In this document: piece after piece, positions 3,094 to 63,124 of the stretch | Layout of the letters: every line of letters begins with the position of its first letter | Numbering within the stretch: the stretch's first letter is position 1 | From: Caenispirillum bisanense | GTDB lineage: Bacteria > Pseudomonadota > Alphaproteobacteria > Rhodospirillales > UBA2165 | Assembly: GCA_945877815.1 (NCBI GenBank) | Contig: CAMDWJ010000011.1 | Coordinates: 1-64,000 of the forward strand | Direction: 5' to 3' | DNA: 64,000 nucleotides | Made by a program: the position numbers and the translations under genes | Notes under the pieces: model-generated | What the model was told of the DNA's origin: nothing | The model's database searches: none | Seen by the model: only the letters and a program-made list of their open reading frames with translations

Positions 3094-4742
3094 ATATGGA
3101 CGATGCTTCCCGACCCCATCAGACCGGTCTCCGCGGCTACGCCGATCTGCAGGAGCATGTCGCGGCCCTCGAGGTGGCGGGGTTGCTGCATCGCATCGAT
3201 GCGCCGGTCAACAAGGATACCGAGATGCATGCGTTGGTGCGCTGGCAATATCGCGGCGGCATCCCGGAAAGCGGGCGCAAGGCGTTTCTGTTCACCAATG
3301 TGACCGATTCCAATGGTCGCCACTACGACATGCCGGTGATCGTCGGCGCGCTCGCCGGCAGCCGCGAGATCTATCGCATCGGGCTTGGCGTCGCGCGCGA
3401 CCAGATCGGCGCGATCTGGCAGAAGGCGCTTGAAAATCCGATCCCGCCGGTGGTCGTCACCAATGCGCCGTGCCAGGAGGTCGTCATCGAAGGCGACGAT
3501 CTAATCGGTGTCGGCAAGGGGCTCGATGCCCTGCCGGTTCCCATCTCCACGCCGGGCTTCGACAGCGCGCCCTATATCACGGCGGGCAATTTCGTGACCC
3601 GCGATCCCGAGAACGGTATTCAGAATCTCGGCACCTATCGCGCGGGCCTCAAATCGCCCAATCGCTTGGTGGTGCGCATGGCGACGCGCAATGGCGGGGC
3701 CGGCGGTTATCCGCATTGGGAAAAATACCGCGCGTTGGGGCAGAAGATGCCGTGCGCCATCGTGCTCGGCTGCCCGCCCTGTGTTGCCTATACCGGCCCG
3801 CAGAAGGTGACGCGCGACGTCGACGAACTGGCGGTGGCCGGCGGCCTCGCCGGCGCGCCCATCCGCGTCGTGCGCGCGCGCACCGTCGATCTGATGGTGC
3901 CGGCGGATTCGGAAATCATCATCGAAGGCTTGATCGACACCGAATATCTCGAGCCCGAAGCGCCGTTCGGCGAGTCGCATGGCCACATCGCGCTCGAAGA
4001 TTTCAATATGATCTTCGATGTCACCTGCATCACCCATCGGCGCAAACCGCTCTTTGCCTCGATCATCTCGCAGGTGACGCCGAGCGAATCGAGTTCCATC
4101 AAGCGCGACGCTTACGAGCAGATGTTCCTCGCGCATCTGCAAAAGACGCTGGGCATCCGCAGCGTACGCAAGGTGATCATGCACGAGCCGCTGACCAATC
4201 TGCGCCGCGTCATCTTCTTGGTTATGCAGCAGGGCACGCCGCGCACCGAGGTGTGGCGCGCACTCCAGGGCACGGCGGCGCTGCGTGCCGATTGCGGGAA
4301 ATATGTGATCGCGGTGAACGAGGATATCGACCCCGACAATACCGACGCGGTCTTCTGGTCGCTTGCCTATCGCTCCAACCCGTCCGAGGATGTGCAGATC
4401 CTGAAATATCGCGACGGCGGGCATGGCCCCAAAGGCGGCGCCAAAAGCACCGACGGGACCATGCTGATCGATGCGACCCTGAAGGCGAAAAGTGCGCCCC
4501 TCGCCTTGCCGAAGCGCGAGTTCATGGAAAACGCGAAGGCGCTGTGGGAACGATTGAACCTGCCGCCCTTGACGCCCGAGGCGCCGTGGCACGGCTATTC
4601 GCTGGGCGATTGGAACGAGGAATGGGACGCCCTCGCCGCGACCGCGACACGCGGAGGTTATCTCGAAAACGGCCTGCGGTCGGAGAAATTGCGCGAGAAG
4701 GGCCTTAAGCCCAACACGCCGTTCCGCAGAAGTACCAAATAG
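3090..4742 (+). CDS. UbiD-family prenylated-FMN (de)carboxylase
   Basis: UbiD-type enzymes use prenylated FMN to decarboxylate or carboxylate aromatic and unsaturated acids in the cytoplasm. The protein is 550 residues. The catalytic set is visible: R184 (in NLGTYRAGL), and E290 and E295 in EAPFGESHGH, with the same five-residue spacing as E277/E282 of yeast Fdc1. The prFMN/metal region GGYPHWEKYRALGQ is also present. ATGA overlaps the preceding hydroxylase stop, so the two are translationally coupled. A second ATG six bases downstream is possible. No UbiX flavin prenyltransferase was seen nearby. The substrate is unknown; the catabolic context suggests an aromatic acid. Confidence 0.9.
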   Translation: MNMDDASRPHQTGLRGYADLQEHVAALEVAGLLHRIDAPVNKDTEMHALVRWQYRGGIPESGRKAFLFTNVTDSNGRHYDMPVIVGALAGSREIYRIGLGVARDQIGAIWQKALENPIPPVVVTNAPCQEVVIEGDDLIGVGKGLDALPVPISTPGFDSAPYITAGNFVTRDPENGIQNLGTYRAGLKSPNRLVVRMATRNGGAGGYPHWEKYRALGQKMPCAIVLGCPPCVAYTGPQKVTRDVDELAVAGGLAGAPIRVVRARTVDLMVPADSEIIIEGLIDTEYLEPEAPFGESHGHIALEDFNMIFDVTCITHRRKPLFASIISQVTPSESSSIKRDAYEQMFLAHLQKTLGIRSVRKVIMHEPLTNLRRVIFLVMQQGTPRTEVWRALQGTAALRADCGKYVIAVNEDIDPDNTDAVFWSLAYRSNPSEDVQILKYRDGGHGPKGGAKSTDGTMLIDATLKAKSAPLALPKREFMENAKALWERLNLPPLTPEAPWHGYSLGDWNEEWDALAATATRGGYLENGLRSEKLREKGLKPNTPFRRSTK

Positions 4743-56917: not shown

Positions 56918-57241
56918 TCAAGGAACTTGCCGGACGAGCCCGGGGTATCGGTTGAAGGCCAGCTTTTGTACAAGCGAGTCTTCCAGCGTGACGATTTCAG
57001 CCAGGATTTCGTTGTTTTCAGCGCTCACCTTGCCGAGCTTCAGGCGCGGGTTCCCATGCCAGGCAAGCAGGCCTTCGACCATCGCTGTAACGCGCGCGGC
57101 GGTCAGTTCGGTGCCGCTCGTGCCATAGATGAGGTGGGCCAAGTGTCCCATATGATTGCCCATGCGGTCGTGCATCCGGCCCCTGCTCATCGTCGCATCG
57201 CCGCCCATCATGCCCATTGGCATGCCACTCTCTCCCCTCAT
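56918..57241 (-). CDS. Met/His-rich hypothetical protein at the end of the copper operon
   Basis: Not a family I recognise. The N-terminus is dense in Met, His and Gly (MPMGMMGGDATMSRGRMHDRMGNHMGH), which could bind Cu(I). The rest is a predicted helical region, TELTAARVTAMVEGLLAWHGNPRLKLGKVSAENNEILAEIVTLEDSLV. There is no clear signal peptide. A second ATG six codons in has a better ribosome site (GGGGAGAG) and may be the true start. It lies six bases after the peptidoglycan-binding gene and is probably the last gene of the CsoR-controlled set. Confidence 0.65.
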   Translation of the reverse strand: MRGESGMPMGMMGGDATMSRGRMHDRMGNHMGHLAHLIYGTSGTELTAARVTAMVEGLLAWHGNPRLKLGKVSAENNEILAEIVTLEDSLVQKLAFNRYPGLVRQVP

Positions 57242-57247
57242 GCCCCG

Positions 57248-57682
57248 TTAGGTATCTTGGCCGCTCGCCTCACCCATCATGCCTTGTGGCCTAGCGCCCT
57301 TCATCGGCATCCTTCCCGCTCCGGGCGTTTGCGCAGTTCGGCGGTCGGAAGTGACGGACGATACTCCCGGACGCGCCAAGACGCCCAACTTGTCGAGCGT
57401 TCCCTTGTCGGGTTCGCCGGTGACGGGCAAATGGTGCTGGCCTTGATAGGTGCGGATCGCCGCGTGCGTCGCGTCACCGAGCACGCCGTCGATGGCGACG
57501 GCGATGCCTTGCTTGTTCAGCGAATTTTGAAGCGCACTGACGGTCGAGGGACTGAAGGAAGTCTCTTGTGCGACCGGATCTGTCTGGGCAACAGCAAGCC
57601 GATGATTGGGCGCCACCGCCAGCATCGCCGCGAAGCCGAATACAAGAGCAACGGTTCGTACGCTTAAATGCGTGGCTTTCAT
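57248..57682 (-). CDS. Secreted peptidoglycan-binding domain protein
   Basis: This 144-residue protein has a signal peptide (VRTVALVFGFAAMLAVAPNHRLAVA). A single PG_binding_1 domain follows, VSALQNSLNKQGIAVAIDGVLGDATHAAIRTYQGQHHLPVTGEPDKGTLDKLGV. The C-terminal tail is Met-containing (GRMPMKGARPQGMMGE) and shares the MPM/GMMGE style of the next gene. It may place copper-handling parts at the cell wall, but that is inference. There is a 39-base gap from the CusF-like gene. Confidence 0.8.
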   Translation of the reverse strand: MKATHLSVRTVALVFGFAAMLAVAPNHRLAVAQTDPVAQETSFSPSTVSALQNSLNKQGIAVAIDGVLGDATHAAIRTYQGQHHLPVTGEPDKGTLDKLGVLARPGVSSVTSDRRTAQTPGAGRMPMKGARPQGMMGEASGQDT

Positions 57683-57721
57683 TTCATTTCTCCATTGTCA
57701 GGACGACAGGACGCGTCGGGT

Positions 57722-58081
57722 TTATTTGGCCGGCTCGATCGACAGCAATGTCAGCGCGCCGCCGCCCTGGCGCACTGTAAATTTCACTTTGTTGCCGACC
57801 GCGATCTGGTCGAGCATCGCCGGGTCGGCCACCTGAAAGACCATCGTCATTGCCTCCATGTCGAGTTCTTGGATCGGGCCGTGGCGCAAGGTCACCTTTT
57901 TCGTCGCCTTGTCGATCTTGCGGACCTCGCCTTCGCCCGTTCCGGTCGGTGTCGGCGCTTGGGCAAAAAGATCGAAACGCGCCTCGTCGGCGTGGTTCGA
58001 TTTTACCTGCCCGGCCGCGAGTAGGAATGCTGTGAAGAGGCCAAGTATCGCGACCGCCGATTTTTTCGAATTATTTTTCAT
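57722..58081 (-). CDS. CusF-like periplasmic copper chaperone
   Basis: This 119-residue protein has a signal peptide and a five-stranded OB-type domain: GEGEVRKIDKATKKVTLRHGPIQELDMEAMTMVFQVADPAMLDQIAVGNKVKFTV. The metal motif H...M-x-M is kept (RHGPI and EAMTMVF). The Trp that stacks on Cu(I) in E. coli CusF (position 44) is replaced by Met (LDMEAM), as in many alphaproteobacterial relatives. It would hand Cu(I) to a partner; the usual CusCBA pump is not here, only a TolC-like gene three genes upstream. Confidence 0.88.
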   Translation of the reverse strand: MKNNSKKSAVAILGLFTAFLLAAGQVKSNHADEARFDLFAQAPTPTGTGEGEVRKIDKATKKVTLRHGPIQELDMEAMTMVFQVADPAMLDQIAVGNKVKFTVRQGGGALTLLSIEPAK

Positions 58082-58103
58082 AACTCTTGCTCCTCAATGC
58101 GCG

Positions 58104-58598
58104 TCAGCGAACGGAAATCTTGCCCTTCATTCCGCCGCTGAAATGGCCGGGGATCAAGCAAGCGAAACCGATTTCCCAGGTTCCTGCCTTGGTGAAGCGC
58201 CAGACAAGTTCAGCGGACTTTCCGGGCTCGACGGAGACTGCATTGGGATCGTCGTGCTCCATCTCAGGGAACTTCTCCATGACCGCCGCGTGCTTCGTCA
58301 GCTCATCGGCGGTTCCGAGCACGAATTCATGTTTGATCTCGCCGGAATTCTTGACAACGAATTTCACGGTTTGCCCCTTGGCGACGTTGATTAGCGCTGG
58401 CTTGAAACGCATCTGGTCGGTCATCGCCACCTCGATGGTCCTGATGTTGCGTGCCTTGAGATCGCCGGGCTCGCCCATGGCGGCCGCGTGGCCGTCGTAG
58501 TGCTCGACGGGCTTTTCATCGTGACTGTGACTCGGTTCGGAAAACAATAGCGCCGGCACTGCCGTGAGAATCGCGGCGGATAGATAAAAAATGCGCAT
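58104..58598 (-). CDS. Cupredoxin-family copper protein
   Basis: This 164-residue secreted protein has a signal peptide followed by a His-containing stretch (SHSHDEKPVEHYDGHAAAMG) and a cupredoxin fold. The type-1 Cu ligands are visible: H in GEIKHEFVLG, then C, H and M in FACLIPGHFSGGMKGKI. It would carry electrons or copper in the periplasm, probably for the adjacent multicopper oxidase. There is a 33-base gap after the oxidase gene. Confidence 0.9.
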   Translation of the reverse strand: MRIFYLSAAILTAVPALLFSEPSHSHDEKPVEHYDGHAAAMGEPGDLKARNIRTIEVAMTDQMRFKPALINVAKGQTVKFVVKNSGEIKHEFVLGTADELTKHAAVMEKFPEMEHDDPNAVSVEPGKSAELVWRFTKAGTWEIGFACLIPGHFSGGMKGKISVR

Positions 58599-58631
58599 CA
58601 GAATTTCTCCTGCAGAATTTCGTTGGTCTAA

Positions 58632-59909
58632 CTAGGCTTTGAGTTCATATGCCACGGTGCCTTTGGGATGGTCGTACCAGCCCGGATCGGCGAAGTCGCC
58701 TCGGCGCAGTCCATCGCGAACCTTCGCGACCGTAAACATGCCACCCATTTCGATGGGGCCGAACGGCCCGGTTCCGGTCATCATGGGAAGTGTGTTTTCG
58801 GGAAGCGGCATTTCCATGCCGCCCATATCTGCCATGCCGCGTTCACCCATGGTCATGAAGTCGGGCACAAGCGTCACCATGCGGCGAGCGAGCCCGCGAT
58901 GATCGACGCCGATCATTGTCGGGACGCTATGACCCATGGGTCCCATCGTGTGATGCGATTTGTGGCAATGGAACGCCCAGTCGCCGGGGGCATTTGCCGT
59001 GAACTCGATGGCGCGCATGGCGCCGACAGGAATATCGGTCGTGACCTCGGGCCATCGCGCGCTCTCCTTTACCCAACCGCCATCGGTGCCGGTCACCTCG
59101 AAATCGTAGCCGTGCAGATGGATCGGGTGATTGGTCATGGTGAGATTGCCCATGCGGATGCGCACCCGGTCGCCTTTTGCGATGACCAGGGGATCGATTC
59201 CCGGAAAGACGCGGCTGTTCCAGCCCCACAGATTGAATTCGGTCATCGTGGCGATTTTCGGCGTATAGCTGCCGGGCTCGATGTCGTAGGCGTTGATTAG
59301 AAACGCGAAGTCGCGATCAACTCGATGTTGATTTGCGTCGCGCGGATGCACGATGAACAGGCCCATCATGCCCATCGCCATTTGCACCATCTCGTCGGCA
59401 TGGGGGTGGTACATGAACGTCCCGCTTTTAGTCAGCTCGAACTCGTAGACATAGGTTTTGCCGACCGGAATTTGCGGCTGCGTCAATCCGCCGACACCGT
59501 CCATCCCACTCGGCAATAAAATCCCATGCCAATGAATCGTGGTGTGTTCGGGCAGCTTGTTGGTAACGAAAAAACGAACCTTGTCGCCTTCGACCGCTTC
59601 GATCGTCGGTCCGGGGCTTTGCCCGTTGTAACCCCACAGGTTCGCCTTCATGCCGGGGGCCATTTCGCGCACGACTGGTTCGGCCACCAGATGGAATTCC
59701 TTCCAGCCGTTATTCATGCGCCAGGGTGCCGACCAGCCGTTGAGTGTGACCACTGGGTTGAACGGTCGGCCGGTTGACGGTGCCTTCGGTACTTCGGTAT
59801 TGGGGCCACCGGGATAGGCGGGCTCAGGTGCGGCGGCCAGGGCCGCGCGTCCGACGGATGCGACGGCCATCGCGGCAGCGCCGGTAAGAAGTGTGCGACG
59901 TGTGAACAT
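58632..59909 (-). CDS. Multicopper oxidase (copper-tolerance type)
   Basis: This 425-residue Tat-exported oxidase (signal TRRTLLTGAAAMAVASVG) has three cupredoxin domains. All copper motifs are present: HWHGI, MYHPHAD, HPIHLHGY and HCHKSHHTMGPMGH, the last holding type-1 and type-3 ligands and the axial Met. It probably oxidises Cu(I) to less toxic Cu(II) in the periplasm, like CueO/CopA. A Met-rich C-terminal part (MTMGERGMADMGGMEMPLPENTLPMM) can bind substrate copper. The ATG follows GGAG. It lies between the TolC-family and cupredoxin genes. Confidence 0.92.
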   Translation of the reverse strand: MFTRRTLLTGAAAMAVASVGRAALAAAPEPAYPGGPNTEVPKAPSTGRPFNPVVTLNGWSAPWRMNNGWKEFHLVAEPVVREMAPGMKANLWGYNGQSPGPTIEAVEGDKVRFFVTNKLPEHTTIHWHGILLPSGMDGVGGLTQPQIPVGKTYVYEFELTKSGTFMYHPHADEMVQMAMGMMGLFIVHPRDANQHRVDRDFAFLINAYDIEPGSYTPKIATMTEFNLWGWNSRVFPGIDPLVIAKGDRVRIRMGNLTMTNHPIHLHGYDFEVTGTDGGWVKESARWPEVTTDIPVGAMRAIEFTANAPGDWAFHCHKSHHTMGPMGHSVPTMIGVDHRGLARRMVTLVPDFMTMGERGMADMGGMEMPLPENTLPMMTGTGPFGPIEMGGMFTVAKVRDGLRRGDFADPGWYDHPKGTVAYELKA

Positions 59910-59930
59910 TTCGGTCTCCATTCCAGATCT

Positions 59931-61343
59931 TCAGTCGGCGCCGCCGGCGAGCGCGCCCAGCGACGACGGTTCGCTGGCGCGGGGTGCGGTGTCGGCGACG
60001 GCAACGAAACGCAGGTCGGTCTCAGCCAGCCAGAATTCGCGTTGAGCTTCGATCGCGGCTATGACACTGCCAATCTGATCGCGTGCATCGGCGAGCAGTT
60101 CGAACACGCCGATCAGCATGCCATTGAATCTTAGCGTTGTTTCTTCGGCAATCTGCTTACGTAACGGCAACACTTCCTTCTGGAAATGGAGTGCCAGATC
60201 GTGTGCTGTGCGATAATCGATATAGGTTTCGCGAACCTCCGAACGCGCCTTGATTGCAAGCTCGGCAAGCCTGTCGGCCGCTTGCATATAGATGTATTCT
60301 GCCCGTGCGACTTTGGTGTCGCCCCAATCGAATATTGGGATTTCCAGTGAGATTTCATATCCCGTTTGACCGGCCTGGCCCGTCGCGCTGTTGCGGAAAT
60401 AGCTTGTCTCCAAGACGTTCACGAACCGCGTCGCTTTGGTCAGGCCGAGCGATTTTGCGAGGCCCGCGATTTCCGCCTTGCCCATCCTGATGTCGAAGCG
60501 CTCGGCGATCGCGCGTGCTTCCATGTCGCCGACATCGACCGTTTGGTCCGGCGACTCGGGCAGACGGTCGGGAAGCTTGAAGGCGAGATCGCCCCCCCAA
60601 ACGCCGAGAAGTCGGGCGAGGCGTTCGCGTTCATGCGATGCGATGCGTCGTGCATTGGCGATGCGACCGACGATCTCGGCATAGAAGATCTGCTGGCGCA
60701 TATAATCGAGTGTGCTCCAATTTCCCGCAGCGCGCAGCCGTCGCGCGAATTCGACGCGGATATCGGCCGCCTCCTTCACCTGCTCGATATAGCTCGCCGC
60801 TTGCTGTGTCGCGACGGCCCGATACCAGGCACGGCGTATATCGGCGACGAAGGTGATCACGTCGTTCGCTGCCTTCATCTGGGCTTGCTCGAACCGGCGT
60901 TCTTCGATGTTGCGCGCGAGCGGCAGGGTGAGCACACCGAGAAGATTGAGCGAGAATTTCCGCTCGATATCCAGATCGTCGTTGCGGCTCAGCCGCTTGA
61001 ACGAGAATCCAGGGTTAGGCAACCGACTGGCCTGGGCGAGATCTGACGCGGCGAGACCAAGTTCGCCGTAGGCCGCCTGTAGGCCGCGATTATTGAGCAA
61101 TCCGAGTTTTACGGCATCGTCGACGTTGAGTGGCCTGCTCAAGAGTTCATCGACAGCACCACGAACGGCCGCGCGATCTTCGTCGGATTTTATCCAGGTG
61201 ATCGGGGCGCCGGTATGCGGCTGGGTCAGCGAGGCGACCTTTTCGAAACCTTGATCGGCGGTTGTGCCGGTGCAACCCACGAACAGGGTAAGAGTGAACA
61301 CGAGCGGTATCGACCTGGCTGCAACGAGTATCTGATTTTTCAT
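59931..61343 (-). CDS. TolC-family outer-membrane protein (lipoprotein)
   Basis: This 470-residue protein has a signal sequence with a lipobox-like FVGC and two TolC repeats. The first starts RPLNVDDAVKLGLLNNRGLQAAYGELGLAASDLAQASRLPNPGFSF. Long helices follow, and PIFDWGDTKVARAEYIYMQ starts the second barrel strand. The coordinates use the ATG opening the signal peptide. No RND or MFP genes accompany it. It lies 21 bases upstream of the oxidase gene, so it appears to be part of the copper operon; its pump partner is unknown. Confidence 0.88.
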   Translation of the reverse strand: MKNQILVAARSIPLVFTLTLFVGCTGTTADQGFEKVASLTQPHTGAPITWIKSDEDRAAVRGAVDELLSRPLNVDDAVKLGLLNNRGLQAAYGELGLAASDLAQASRLPNPGFSFKRLSRNDDLDIERKFSLNLLGVLTLPLARNIEERRFEQAQMKAANDVITFVADIRRAWYRAVATQQAASYIEQVKEAADIRVEFARRLRAAGNWSTLDYMRQQIFYAEIVGRIANARRIASHERERLARLLGVWGGDLAFKLPDRLPESPDQTVDVGDMEARAIAERFDIRMGKAEIAGLAKSLGLTKATRFVNVLETSYFRNSATGQAGQTGYEISLEIPIFDWGDTKVARAEYIYMQAADRLAELAIKARSEVRETYIDYRTAHDLALHFQKEVLPLRKQIAEETTLRFNGMLIGVFELLADARDQIGSVIAAIEAQREFWLAETDLRFVAVADTAPRASEPSSLGALAGGAD

Positions 61344-61353
61344 GGCCAACCCC

Positions 61354-61728
61354 CTAATGTCCGTGGCCCGGCATGGGCGCGATATCGACCGGCATTCTGG
61401 GTCTGGCCTCAGGTGCCGGTTGCTCCGGGGCATTGATTGCGATGGGTGCGGAGGCGATGGGCGGTGTCGGCTTTGCAATATCCCTCACTGAACCGGTATG
61501 ACCGCCGACTGACCGGACCGTATCGTTGACGGACCGCCAGTTCGCGATCTCATCGTTCCGAAACGGACGATATCCTTCGAACGCCGATTGGTAGGCGAGC
61601 GGTATAGCACTCGGGGCCGGGCTCAAGGGATCGGTGAGCGCAGTTTGCGCGCGTGCGGGCGCGATGGCGAGCGCAACGAGCGCTACCGCCCTGACAGTAA
61701 GAGACAGCATGTGACGTGAGAATGGCAT
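61354..61728 (-). CDS. Secreted Pro-rich hypothetical protein
   Basis: Not recognised. This 124-residue protein has a signal peptide (MLSLTVRAVALVALAIAPARA) and a mid part AIPLAYQSAFEGYRPFRNDEIANWRSVNDTVRSVGGHTG. The tail is Pro/Ala-rich and ends MPGHGH, a possible metal ligand. It lies ten bases upstream of the TolC-family gene and so is in the CsoR-controlled set. Genes of this size and place sometimes accompany copper TolC proteins, but no function is known to me. The start was chosen at the ATG directly before the signal peptide. Confidence 0.65.
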   Translation of the reverse strand: MPFSRHMLSLTVRAVALVALAIAPARAQTALTDPLSPAPSAIPLAYQSAFEGYRPFRNDEIANWRSVNDTVRSVGGHTGSVRDIAKPTPPIASAPIAINAPEQPAPEARPRMPVDIAPMPGHGH

Positions 61729-61804
61729 GGCCAACCCCGCAAAAGACAGTGACTCGATGGAACGCGCTGACACGCGCACCATCATCCGAACGTTGGTATC
61801 GGAA

Positions 61805-62194
61805 TCACGCGCGCGGAGGGGCTATCGGAGGTTTCGTGGTGCGTATGACGGCGGATAGACTCGCCGTGGCCGGAATGACGTGCGTCGATGGTGTCGGCAA
61901 CTCGATCGAAGGAGCGAGAAGCATCGCGGCATGGCAGATGGGATGAAGTTTGCATGGGCCGCATGGATCTGAGGCCGGCTGATCGTTCGCCTGCGCATCG
62001 TCATGGTCGCAGTCGTGCTCTTGAACATCGGCATGTGCATGAGCATGCCGCGTCTGATGGGTATTTTCGCCGTGCGACGAATCGGCAATCGCCATGTTCA
62101 TGCCTGCCGAATGCGAAAGCGGCACGAAGATGACAGCGAGCGCGATGATCAAGGTGAGAAAAACGCGCGGAGGTAAGGTGTAAATCCGTCGCAT
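61805..62194 (-). CDS. His/Cys-rich membrane or periplasmic protein (DUF2946-like)
   Basis: This 129-residue protein has one N-terminal hydrophobic helix (VFLTLIIALAVIFVPLSHSAGM). A His-rich stretch (HQTRHAHAHADVQEHDCDHDD) and a Cys cluster, DPCGPCKLHPICHAAM, follow. The layout of helix, His-rich loop and paired Cys matches DUF2946-type proteins found with copper genes. It may bind copper at the envelope. It begins two bases after csoR and so is co-transcribed with it. Confidence 0.7.
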   Translation of the reverse strand: MRRIYTLPPRVFLTLIIALAVIFVPLSHSAGMNMAIADSSHGENTHQTRHAHAHADVQEHDCDHDDAQANDQPASDPCGPCKLHPICHAAMLLAPSIELPTPSTHVIPATASLSAVIRTTKPPIAPPRA

Positions 62195-62196
62195 GG

Positions 62197-62472
62197 CTAT
62201 TTGCCGGCGCGGCTGAGCACGTCGAGTAGCTCGGTTATCTTGCGGCCCTGCTCGTCCTTATCGCCCGATGCGATCGCGTGCACGACGCAATGCTCGACAT
62301 GATCGCGCAGAATTTCCTCTTCGACCCGATTGAGGGCGGCGCGCGCCGCCGCGATCTGGGTGATCACATCGATGCAATAGCGATCTTCGGTCACCATGCG
62401 CGATATGCCGCGCACTTGTCCTTCGATGCGATTGAGCCGGGTGAGGCATTTGTTCTTGATGGAATCTTGCAC
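62197..62472 (-). CDS. csoR: CsoR-family copper-sensing repressor
   Basis: This 91-residue all-helical DNA-binding repressor has LNRIEGQVRGISRMVTEDRYCIDVITQI and then RVEEEILRDHVEHCVV. The Cu(I) ligands of CsoR are in place: C33, H58 and C62 (Cys, then His-x3-Cys), which argues for copper rather than formaldehyde (FrmR) or nickel (RcnR). The start is GTG at 62472. Its promoter has an ideal -10 (TATAAA) only six bases upstream of that codon, so the transcript may be leaderless. It heads the copper operon and probably represses it when copper is low. Confidence 0.92.
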   Translation of the reverse strand: MQDSIKNKCLTRLNRIEGQVRGISRMVTEDRYCIDVITQIAAARAALNRVEEEILRDHVEHCVVHAIASGDKDEQGRKITELLDVLSRAGK

Positions 62473-62477
62473 GACTC

Positions 62478-62506
62478 TTTATACCCTATAGGGGTATTGG
62501 CGGCAA
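62478..62506 (-). promoter_or_regulatory. csoR operon promoter with CsoR-type operator in the spacer
   Basis: On the minus strand the -35 is TTGCCG (62501-62506) and the -10 is TATAAA (62478-62483), 17 bases apart. The inverted repeat ATACCC-N5-GGGTAT (62481-62497) fills the spacer and touches the -10. GC-rich ACCC/GGGT palindromes of this type are CsoR/RcnR-family sites. Start of transcription is expected at or next to the GTG codon. Confidence 0.75.
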
Positions 62507-62743
62507 GCTCGAATGTTGGCGGGAATTTCGCTCGTTCTCGGCGCGCTCCGTCGTGCCATCGCCGCTTGCGTTAGATCTCGCGGCAGATCCGCCGACCGTT
62601 TGAATTGCGGTAACAAACGCGTGTGCAGGCTATTATGTGATCGAAATCGTCACCGGGATCATCGATATTTAGGCTCGTACTTCCCGCCTCGCGCGCATAT
62701 TGGCGTTCCGGTTATTTGCGGAATAACGAAGAGGGCATACAGT

Positions 62744-63124
62744 TTGAGCGACCGCCTCGATATTCTGCTCGTTGAAGACGACGACCTCGTCATGAGGTCG
62801 TTTTCCGACATGCTCCGCGATATGGGACACGATGTTTTCGAAGCGCCCGCGGCACCTGAGGCGCTTGCCTGGCTGGATAAAAATCGCAGCCTTGATGTGT
62901 TGATCACGGATATTGATTTGTCCGGAATGGATGGCCGCGAGTTGGTGCGCCAGGCGCGTCGCCTCGTTCCCGCTCTGCGCGTCATCTATTCCAGCGGCCA
63001 CCGGGCCGAGAAAATCCCCGATCTTGGGTCCGATCCCTTGGCGCGGTTCCTGCAAAAGCCGTTAGGGTCCATGGAGGTCGACGCAGTGTTTCGAAGCCTA
63101 CACGCCAACGCGCACAATCTTTAG
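62744..63124 (+). CDS. Single-domain response regulator (CheY-like)
   Basis: This receiver-only protein of 126 residues has an acidic pocket VEDDD at 10-14, phospho-acceptor D56 (LITDIDLSGMDG), switch region SS at 83-84 and K105 (FLQKPLG). It has no output domain. The frame is open far upstream, but the receiver starts at LSDRLDILLVEDDD. A TTG at 62744, ten bases after GAGGG, is the likely start because no ATG or GTG lies near. No kinase gene is adjacent. It is divergent from csoR with 270 bases between. Confidence 0.8.
   Translation: MSDRLDILLVEDDDLVMRSFSDMLRDMGHDVFEAPAAPEALAWLDKNRSLDVLITDIDLSGMDGRELVRQARRLVPALRVIYSSGHRAEKIPDLGSDPLARFLQKPLGSMEVDAVFRSLHANAHNL

Follow-up and report, generated by a model that had tools for sequence, protein, structure and literature searches.

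The stretch of DNA analysed here, referred to as the window, comprises the first 64,000 nucleotides (nt; 64 kb) of a 111.7-kb contig (CAMDWJ010000011.1) from the 3.98-Mb genome of Caenispirillum bisanense (GCA_945877815.1), and carries on its minus strand a putative copper-protection operon headed by csoR. Nine open reading frames (ORFs) run from 62472 down to 56918 in the order csoR, a small His/Cys protein (P2), a secreted Pro-rich protein (P3), a TolC-type lipoprotein (OEP), a two-domain copper oxidase, a cupredoxin, a CusF-like chaperone, a peptidoglycan-binding ORF (PGB) and a Met-rich ORF (P9) (Table 1). A preliminary description had proposed this nine-gene operon together with its protein families; all nine ORFs are present, and six families (CsoR, OEP, multicopper oxidase, cupredoxin, CusF and PG_binding_1) score above the curated Pfam cut-off. 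P3, searched as a longer form, and P9 gave no Pfam or NCBIfam match at an E-value of 0.1. Signal sequences in the operon products were judged by eye, generic promoter and terminator scans of the region returned chance level only, and no paper describing the cassette itself was found in the open-licence literature. Operators, gene order, leader motifs and covariation between the end of P2 and the translation start of P3 point, with moderate confidence, to an envelope copper detoxification operon with two regulatory tiers, for which the direction of control, the flow of copper and the role of the channel are inferred.

Table 1. Positions of the operon genes and of the predicted regulatory elements in the window; bit scores are from Pfam profiles.
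Feature	Position	Strand	Description
CsoR operator ATACCCCTATAGGGTAT	62481..62497	none	8 nt upstream of the csoR GTG; perfect ATACCC-N5-GGGTAT
csoR	62197..62472	-	Cu(I)-sensing repressor, C33-H58-C62; PF02583, 108 bits; best PDB match 4m1p (CsoR), E 1.9e-19
P2	61805..62194	-	CutF/CruR-like (DUF2946-like) putative leader; signal-like segment, His-rich middle, CxxC at 78-81, C-terminal APPRA
Predicted anti-Shine-Dalgarno arm	61804..61823	-	codons of APPRA plus the stop of P2; duplex of -18.5 kcal/mol with the P3 Shine-Dalgarno arm
Predicted P3 Shine-Dalgarno arm	61729..61752	-	GCGGGGTTGGCC before ATG 61728
P3	61354..61728	-	small secreted Pro-rich protein, His-containing C terminus; no Pfam/NCBIfam match; ORF can start at 61785
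OEP	59931..61343	-	TolC/OprM/CusC-fold outer-membrane lipoprotein; PF02321, 86 bits; Cys24
Multicopper oxidase	58632..59921	-	two cupredoxin domains by alignment; Cu-oxidase_3/Cu-oxidase_2, 139/113 bits; twin-arginine-like leader (R8 R9), Met-rich C-terminal tail
CopI-like cupredoxin	58104..58598	-	PF00127 (Copper-bind), 36 bits; KHEF at 89, C-x4-H-x4-M at 147
CusF-like Cu(I) chaperone	57722..58081	-	H67-M75-M78-M80 site; PF11604 (CusF_Ec), 96.8 bits (cut-off 27); aligned to E. coli CusF
PGB	57248..57682	-	secreted PG_binding_1 protein, Met-rich tail; PF01471, 51 bits
P9	56918..57241	-	Met-rich ORF with a C-terminal domain of ~65 amino acids; in frame with PGB across one TAA

Relatives were compared through a locus table of the best 80 of 590 relatives plus 10 relatives from the window's own order, which represents close relatives (69–82% identical oxidases) rather than a census; class labels were assigned by hand, and several records are metagenome bins. 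Ten of 13 close order relatives were included with their flanks (L009, L015 and L018 were left out), and L045 and L094, in which the ORF caller had fused the oxidase frame, were omitted, leaving 88 loci with a scorable oxidase: 20 alpha-, 50 beta- and 6 gammaproteobacterial, 3 unplaced and 9 from one family of the window's order. An OEP gene accompanies the oxidase in 86 of the 88, P3 in 65 (before the OEP gene), P2 in 64, CusF in 63 and the cupredoxin in 54. The neighbourhood search suggested in the preliminary description recovers the P2–P3–TolC–oxidase–cupredoxin–CusF core in alpha-, beta- and gammaproteobacteria; the peptidoglycan-binding and Met-rich ORFs, unmatched in the 90 loci searched (some with short flanks), fall outside this conserved unit.

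Transcriptional control is suggested by csoR and its operator. The csoR product belongs to PF02583 and carries the C-H-C triad that is presumably its Cu(I) site, and a CsoR-type site with up to one mismatch would be expected 0.01 times in the window by chance. A CsoR motif scan covering the 80 named loci and L144 placed CsoR before the cassette in 10 loci, all of them alphaproteobacterial, and ATACCC-N5-GGGTAT lies upstream of csoR in 10/10 of these relatives (nine perfect, one with a single mismatch). The 1.35 Mb of the 80 named loci hold 12 sites with no more than one mismatch, and the csoR promoters of nine loci account for 11 of these. An ORF ending in PP follows csoR within 120 nt in 9/10 CsoR-bearing loci, and copA is divergent from csoR in 7/10. 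In a sister genome of the same genus (G081), copA is divergent from csoR.

The window's own genome encodes two P1B ATPases, both on other contigs: one on C17, adjoining ORFs read by eye as of the fixGHIS type, and a CopA-type protein on C8 that starts with a DPVCGM segment. A one-mismatch CsoR-type site (C8:60138-60154) lies 40 nt upstream of the likely ATG of this unlinked copA, whose longest ORF starts at the edge of the site, the downstream ATG being taken as the start. Four CsoR-type sites at up to one mismatch exist in the genome, namely the perfect one at csoR, that at copA, and two elsewhere. Because of the copA-neighbour pattern in relatives and the CsoR-type site at its own promoter, the copA pump is most likely under the same predicted CsoR regulon as the operon, the simplest reading being that copA moved away, keeping its operator. 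An ORF at 62513-63124, divergent from csoR and at the place occupied by copA in 7/10 CsoR-bearing relatives, is response regulator-like by eye. On the copA side, a DUF305-like frame (L004, ~3860-4230; G000:C8), divergent from copA and adjoining the CsoR site, looks broken by eye.

A second, translational tier is suggested by P2. This protein of 129 residues ends in IAPPRA, contains 11 His and 4 Cys, has a hydrophobic N-terminal segment read by eye, and falls just under the gathering cut-off of DUF2946 (PF11162; 21.9 of 23.7 bits, E 3e-4), with a match to NCBIfam CopL at E 0.011. An iterated profile search gathered 69 collinear family members including the window, three of which precede a second OEP gene adjoining an RND gene. 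In all 69 a PP falls among the final 14 residues (as RPP in 59), and 51 have CxxC, with 41-42 residues between CxxC and PP in 46 of those 51 (of two overlapping CxxC, the one nearest 45 was taken). This spacing, 42 in P2 itself, is kept even though 19 aligned relatives are only 17–37% identical to the window P2; computed from published coordinates, the corresponding spacing is 45 in CruR (PMC9426467) and 39 from the Cys motif in CutF (PMC8456105).

The nascent exported CutF chain reportedly senses copper and slows at its proline-rich end, whereupon a stem-loop over the Shine-Dalgarno (SD) sequence of the next gene opens (PMC9973294); CruR is reported to work in the opposite sense and through Rho (PMC9426467). 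Several of the traits given for CutF-like leaders (PMC9973294) recur in P2, which is shorter than 150 residues, has PP in the last 15 residues and is followed on the same strand within 1000 nt (76 nt) by the next gene. The Cys metal motif is present (CxxC 78-81), and an SD-hiding structure is supported at the family level by covariation, the single-sequence test in the window not being significant. For the Sec signal peptide, a further trait of the group, P2 offers the hydrophobic N-terminal segment seen by eye. Known parallels extend to the Bordetella DUF2946 upstream ORF CruR, which shares CxxC and a C-terminal PP with P2. The preliminary description had cast P2 as a 'His/Cys-rich DUF' for sequestration; after the spacing and covariation tests that role was set aside, and P2 appears better explained as a CutF/CruR-type regulatory leader, in view of its PP end, spacing and covariation. 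Second CutF-like leaders stand before an OEP and RND operon adjoining the cassette in three loci (L035 6147-6512, L055 13081-13449 and L068 12186-12542).

To measure the covariation, the final 36 nt of P2, extended by 3 nt, were annealed in silico to the P3 start codon together with the 24 nt preceding it. P3 starts were picked by SD strength, with ATG preferred and blind to P2, and 54 of the 60 P2–P3 pairs were tested, namely those in which a usable P3 start lay 8 nt or more downstream; for the window, the likely start is the ATG at 61728 and not 61785. Cognate pairs anneal with a mean of -15.1 kcal/mol, versus -12.8 for swapped pairs (N=54), which after removal of row and column means corresponds to a z of -6.1, reached by 0/20000 permutations. 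The signal persists in identity-thinned sets of 52, 41, 29 and 25 loci (z -6.7, -6.9, -5.8 and -5.0), and is centred on the last ~10 nt of P2, which are covered in up to 37/54 loci. Control pairings give no such values: the P2 tail with P3 coding sequence or with the upstream spacer (z -1.1 and 0.4), two earlier P2 stretches with the SD (-0.1 and 0.0), and five other cassette junctions (-0.65, 1.36, -0.04, -1.73 and 0.28).

The gap between P2 and P3 is 76 nt in the window, with a median of 90 and a range of 39-278 over the 54 loci. Downstream of P2, the RNA folds more stably than shuffled sequences, with a mean z of -2.0 across 69 leaders and values below -2 in 32. The window helix is present in the minimum free energy fold of 61710-61830, and the corresponding P2 tail/SD duplex of the sister genome reaches -18.8 kcal/mol. 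In the window, the codons at the P2 stall motif are predicted to overlap the anti-SD arm of P3. The start context GGGGTTGGCCATG occurs twice, at the P3 and OEP starts (61728 and 61354 regions); this repeat made the OEP start a second candidate partner for the P2 tail, which was rejected because no family signal was seen (z 0.16).

In the mechanism proposed here, cytoplasmic Cu(I) would release CsoR from the operator at 62481-62497 and probably also from its counterpart before the unlinked copA, inducing the inner-membrane exporter and the envelope proteins together. From the pairing of P2 with the P3 SD, translation of the operon is predicted to be opened by copper, as a layer beneath CsoR. 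The nascent P2 chain would bind copper through CxxC during export, slowing the ribosome at the C-terminal PP; the anti-SD arm within the P2 codons would otherwise close the P3 start, and the held ribosome would open it. P3 could then be made and, by coupling, so could the TolC-type channel, oxidase, cupredoxin and CusF. Cu(I) brought into the periplasm by CopA would be carried by CusF and the cupredoxin and converted to Cu(II) by the oxidase, itself exported by the twin-arginine (Tat) route, and the lipoprotein channel would let copper out, oxidase and channel working, in functional terms, like Caulobacter PcoA/PcoB. A stricter form of this mechanism, given a little less than even confidence, would place two serial copper sensors on one transcript, CsoR reading cytoplasmic Cu(I) for transcription and a CutF-like nascent chain reading membrane copper for translation; the stall codons of the leader would double as the anti-SD, and the defence would be made only when both compartments report copper.

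The scheme has a precedent in Rhodobacter capsulatus cutFOG (leader CutF, oxidase CutO and chaperone CutG), which shares with the operon a small Cys-motif leader (exported in CutF, with a signal-like segment in P2) that has a C-terminal PP and precedes oxidase and copper-chaperone genes, a stem-loop, predicted here, that hides the SD of the next gene, and an oxidase with a twin-arginine leader. It differs in several respects: here P3 and then the TolC-type lipoprotein follow the leader, the oxidase aligns as the two-domain type, a cupredoxin and CusF take the place of CutG, csoR heads the operon, and the predicted anti-SD arm in the window overlaps the PP codons.

Several observations weigh against the two tiers as drawn. 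CsoR goes with the cassette in only 10 of the 21 alphaproteobacterial loci, and across the genome six sites fit a backward control pattern, against four that fit the CsoR motif at up to one mismatch; one-mismatch sites are thus at chance level genome-wide, and only the position of the site at copA carries weight. CxxC is missing from 18/69 P2 members. The test on 54 loci was thinned by identity only and not tree-corrected, the leader region of the sister genome G081 is not unusually folded (z 0.28), and the window hairpin alone is not significant versus shuffles (z -0.81, or -1.58 on a 135-nt stretch), so the single-sequence fold was dropped as proof and only the family-wide test is relied upon. 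TolC-fold channels normally need a periplasmic adaptor, and PcoB is a beta-barrel of another fold, making the channel analogy a functional one only. Finally, CruR works in the opposite sense, copper relieving stalling, so that sequence does not settle in which direction the second tier acts.

The best-surviving alternative, though still unlikely, concerns the channel: the TolC-type lipoprotein might dock with an unlinked RND/adaptor pair as a tripartite copper exporter. An AlphaFold2 model of the OEP (mean predicted local distance difference test score, pLDDT, 77.9) matches OprN/OprM/TolC/CusC/SilC in Foldseek (probability 1.00, template modelling score, TM, 0.5-0.6), and so has the pump-docking OprM/CusC fold; Cys24 is invariant in 24/24 aligned relatives, as in outer-membrane lipoproteins. 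Each of the two RND permeases of the genome comes after an adaptor-size ORF and has no OEP-like ORF adjoining by eye, so that outer-membrane channels are probably shared, but both permeases fall short of the heavy-metal-family cut-off, with 397.6 and 273.7 bits against 701.45, and three further OEP proteins are encoded in the genome, one of them with an internal stop. In 16/88 relatives a heavy-metal RND gene lies close to the cassette, whereas none was identified in the flanks, some of them short, of the other 72/88 loci. An OEP reading frame with an internal TAG is found at G000:C64:9997-10557.

More broadly, an RND gene lies inside the cassette in 0/88 loci, and pumps stand beside the cassette in a minority of relatives without being members of it: a CPC-type P-type ATPase occurs in the flanks of 28/88 loci and an RND gene in those of 18/88. 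Of 18 RND ORFs classified (one per locus), 16 score above cut-off for the CusA/CzcA family, the other two being an AcrB-like ORF and a fragment that gave no call at the threshold used; a further RND ORF (L063:531-3692) was left unclassified. In the window's own genome, an RND search returned the two permeases mentioned above, with no CusA in the operon and no heavy-metal RND above cut-off genome-wide, while CusB, sought among the nine ORFs only and not genome-wide, is absent from these. CopB, CopC and CopD have no match among the nine operon ORFs either, the channel being PF02321. These results support the earlier proposals of CsoR control, an envelope location and a gene set unlike Cus, Cop and Pco, but qualify the picture of a unit lacking a pump: neither an RND gene nor a P-type ATPase lies in the operon, yet copA is likely in the same regulon, and CopA or CusAB genes accompany the cassette in relatives as neighbours only. 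The layout is widespread yet apparently unstudied, rather than a pump-free oddity.

Another alternative, which appears improbable, is that the oxidase has a different substrate and that the operon serves the building of cuproenzymes rather than detoxification. The biology of CutF and CutO reportedly includes maturation (PMC8456105), and the oxidase is nearer to two-domain laccases than to CueO, partly on the evidence of a low-confidence model (AlphaFold2 mean pLDDT 55.6), whose Foldseek list was for that reason not relied on. Residues 74-331 align in one stretch to the two-domain laccase 2zwn, and to the top-scoring chain, 6vow, in two; R8, R9 and the His/Cys of HWHG, YHPH, HPIHLHG and HCH are invariant in 24/24 aligned relatives; and the CopA/PcoA-type profile TIGR01480 scores below cut-off (172.8 of 478.95 bits). 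However, CsoR control, CusF, a CopA-type exporter that is probably co-regulated and the Met-rich tail of the oxidase all suggest excess Cu(I), and a function in cell-envelope copper protection or detoxification is accordingly the one we infer. CusF itself combines a score above cut-off with the Cu(I) ligands, and the cupredoxin shares with CopI (NF051440/NF047895) a single domain and the H/C/H/M ligand pattern, but falls below both family cut-offs (120.3 of 280 and 87.1 of 200 bits).

It is similarly doubtful that P2 and P3 are plain exported His/Cys-rich copper-binding proteins with no regulatory role. The 11 His and 4 Cys of P2, its signal-like segment, and a P3 relative in L059 with many HAGHNM-type repeats would fit such a role, but the C-terminal PP and the near-fixed CxxC spacing are kept at 17–37% identity, anti-SD/SD covariation has no reason to exist in a plain structural gene, and CutF reportedly went undetected unless its signal sequence was removed (PMC9973294). 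A leader acting in the sense of CruR, with copper relieving stalling, expression falling and the second tier damping the operon, is hardly more credible. CruR (DUF2946, CXXC plus RAPP) is reported to act in this way in Bordetella (PMC9426467), and P2 has CxxC like CruR, not the CxxxC of CutF. CruR reportedly controls an uptake gene by Rho termination over a 162-bp gap, with down-regulation by copper (PMC9426467), whereas here the gap is 76 nt and holds a predicted SD-closing helix, as in cutFOG, and copper damping of a detoxification operon would make little sense. Least probable of all, an artefact of shared ancestry or base composition has in its favour that the loci are related and that leader ends are C-rich and SD regions G-rich, so that swapped pairs anneal too, but against it stand the persistence of the signal on thinning and the failure of all ten other region pairs to match it, among which the cupredoxin tail paired with the CusF SD comes closest (z -1.73).

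Placed among known copper systems, the operon shares with Caulobacter PcoA/PcoB and Xanthomonas copLAB an oxidase and an outer-membrane protein with no inner-membrane pump. Caulobacter PcoA/PcoB is described as an oxidase and an outer-membrane exporter with no known energy source (PMC12509749), and copL is reported to be a small leader with no action in trans (PMC9973294). It differs from both in that the outer-membrane partner is a TolC-fold lipoprotein and not a CopB/PcoB barrel, and that a cupredoxin and CusF are added. With CusCFBA/SilCFBA the common features are the CusF-like chaperone and the CusC-fold channel, the differences being the absence of an RND permease from 88/88 cassettes and the presence of an oxidase in the unit. 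Its parts (CsoR regulon, CutF-type leader, detoxification by oxidase and channel) are all of known kinds.

The commonest neighbours of CutF-like proteins are reported to be outer-membrane efflux proteins, and these were tied to RND pumps (PMC9973294); here such a neighbour sits in an oxidase and channel cassette without a pump gene, in three proteobacterial classes and on plasmids. Through the anti-SD/SD covariation, the spread of the CutF mechanism becomes testable mutation by mutation, and the CsoR-headed version would offer a natural two-compartment copper gate that could be rebuilt in the laboratory.

Beyond the loci compared, a search of the window's order found an oxidase match of at least 56% identity in 14/297 genomes, own included, the remaining matches being weak, and 338 of 72,556 plasmid records had a match over at least 80% of the oxidase, with a best match 60–80% identical in 337. 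The nine loci from one family of the window's order (L154-L161 and L163) carry a 53–58% identical oxidase and an OEP gene; P2, P3, the cupredoxin and CusF were not found at these nine. L155, the sole one of them scanned, has DUF1775, a CopC–CopD fusion and two ABC-2/DUF3526 permeases instead, and the group looks like a sister cassette with a possible exporter of its own.

The last two ORFs are probably a lineage-specific addition. Neither PGB nor P9 was matched in the 90 cassette loci, some of them cut off shortly beyond CusF, and P9 occurs in 1/24 family genomes (own), so both were set aside as conserved members; PGB also has no match in G081, the sole other genome of the genus compared, whose contig ends just after CusF. 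The two occupy one frame with a single TAA between them, are Met-rich on both sides of it, and P9, judged by eye, lacks a signal peptide; because of this shared frame and composition they may be one interrupted gene or the product of an assembly error. A PGB–P9 fusion was sought in 28 other P9-domain loci and not found, so that frame and composition are all that the single-gene reading draws on.

The C-terminal domain of P9 is present in 23/385 class genomes, own included. The related ORFs inspected are larger; by eye, many combine a signal-like start with a Met-rich stretch, and none of them matches PGB. In L116-L143 this domain of ~65 amino acids (GNPRLKLG...IVTxDGSLVQ), which has no Pfam match in the window copy, is often borne by Met-rich ORFs. 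Among nine P9 loci from six genomes taken with wide flanks, a P-type ATPase lies within a few genes in seven (L145, L146 and L148-L152, but not L147 or L153).

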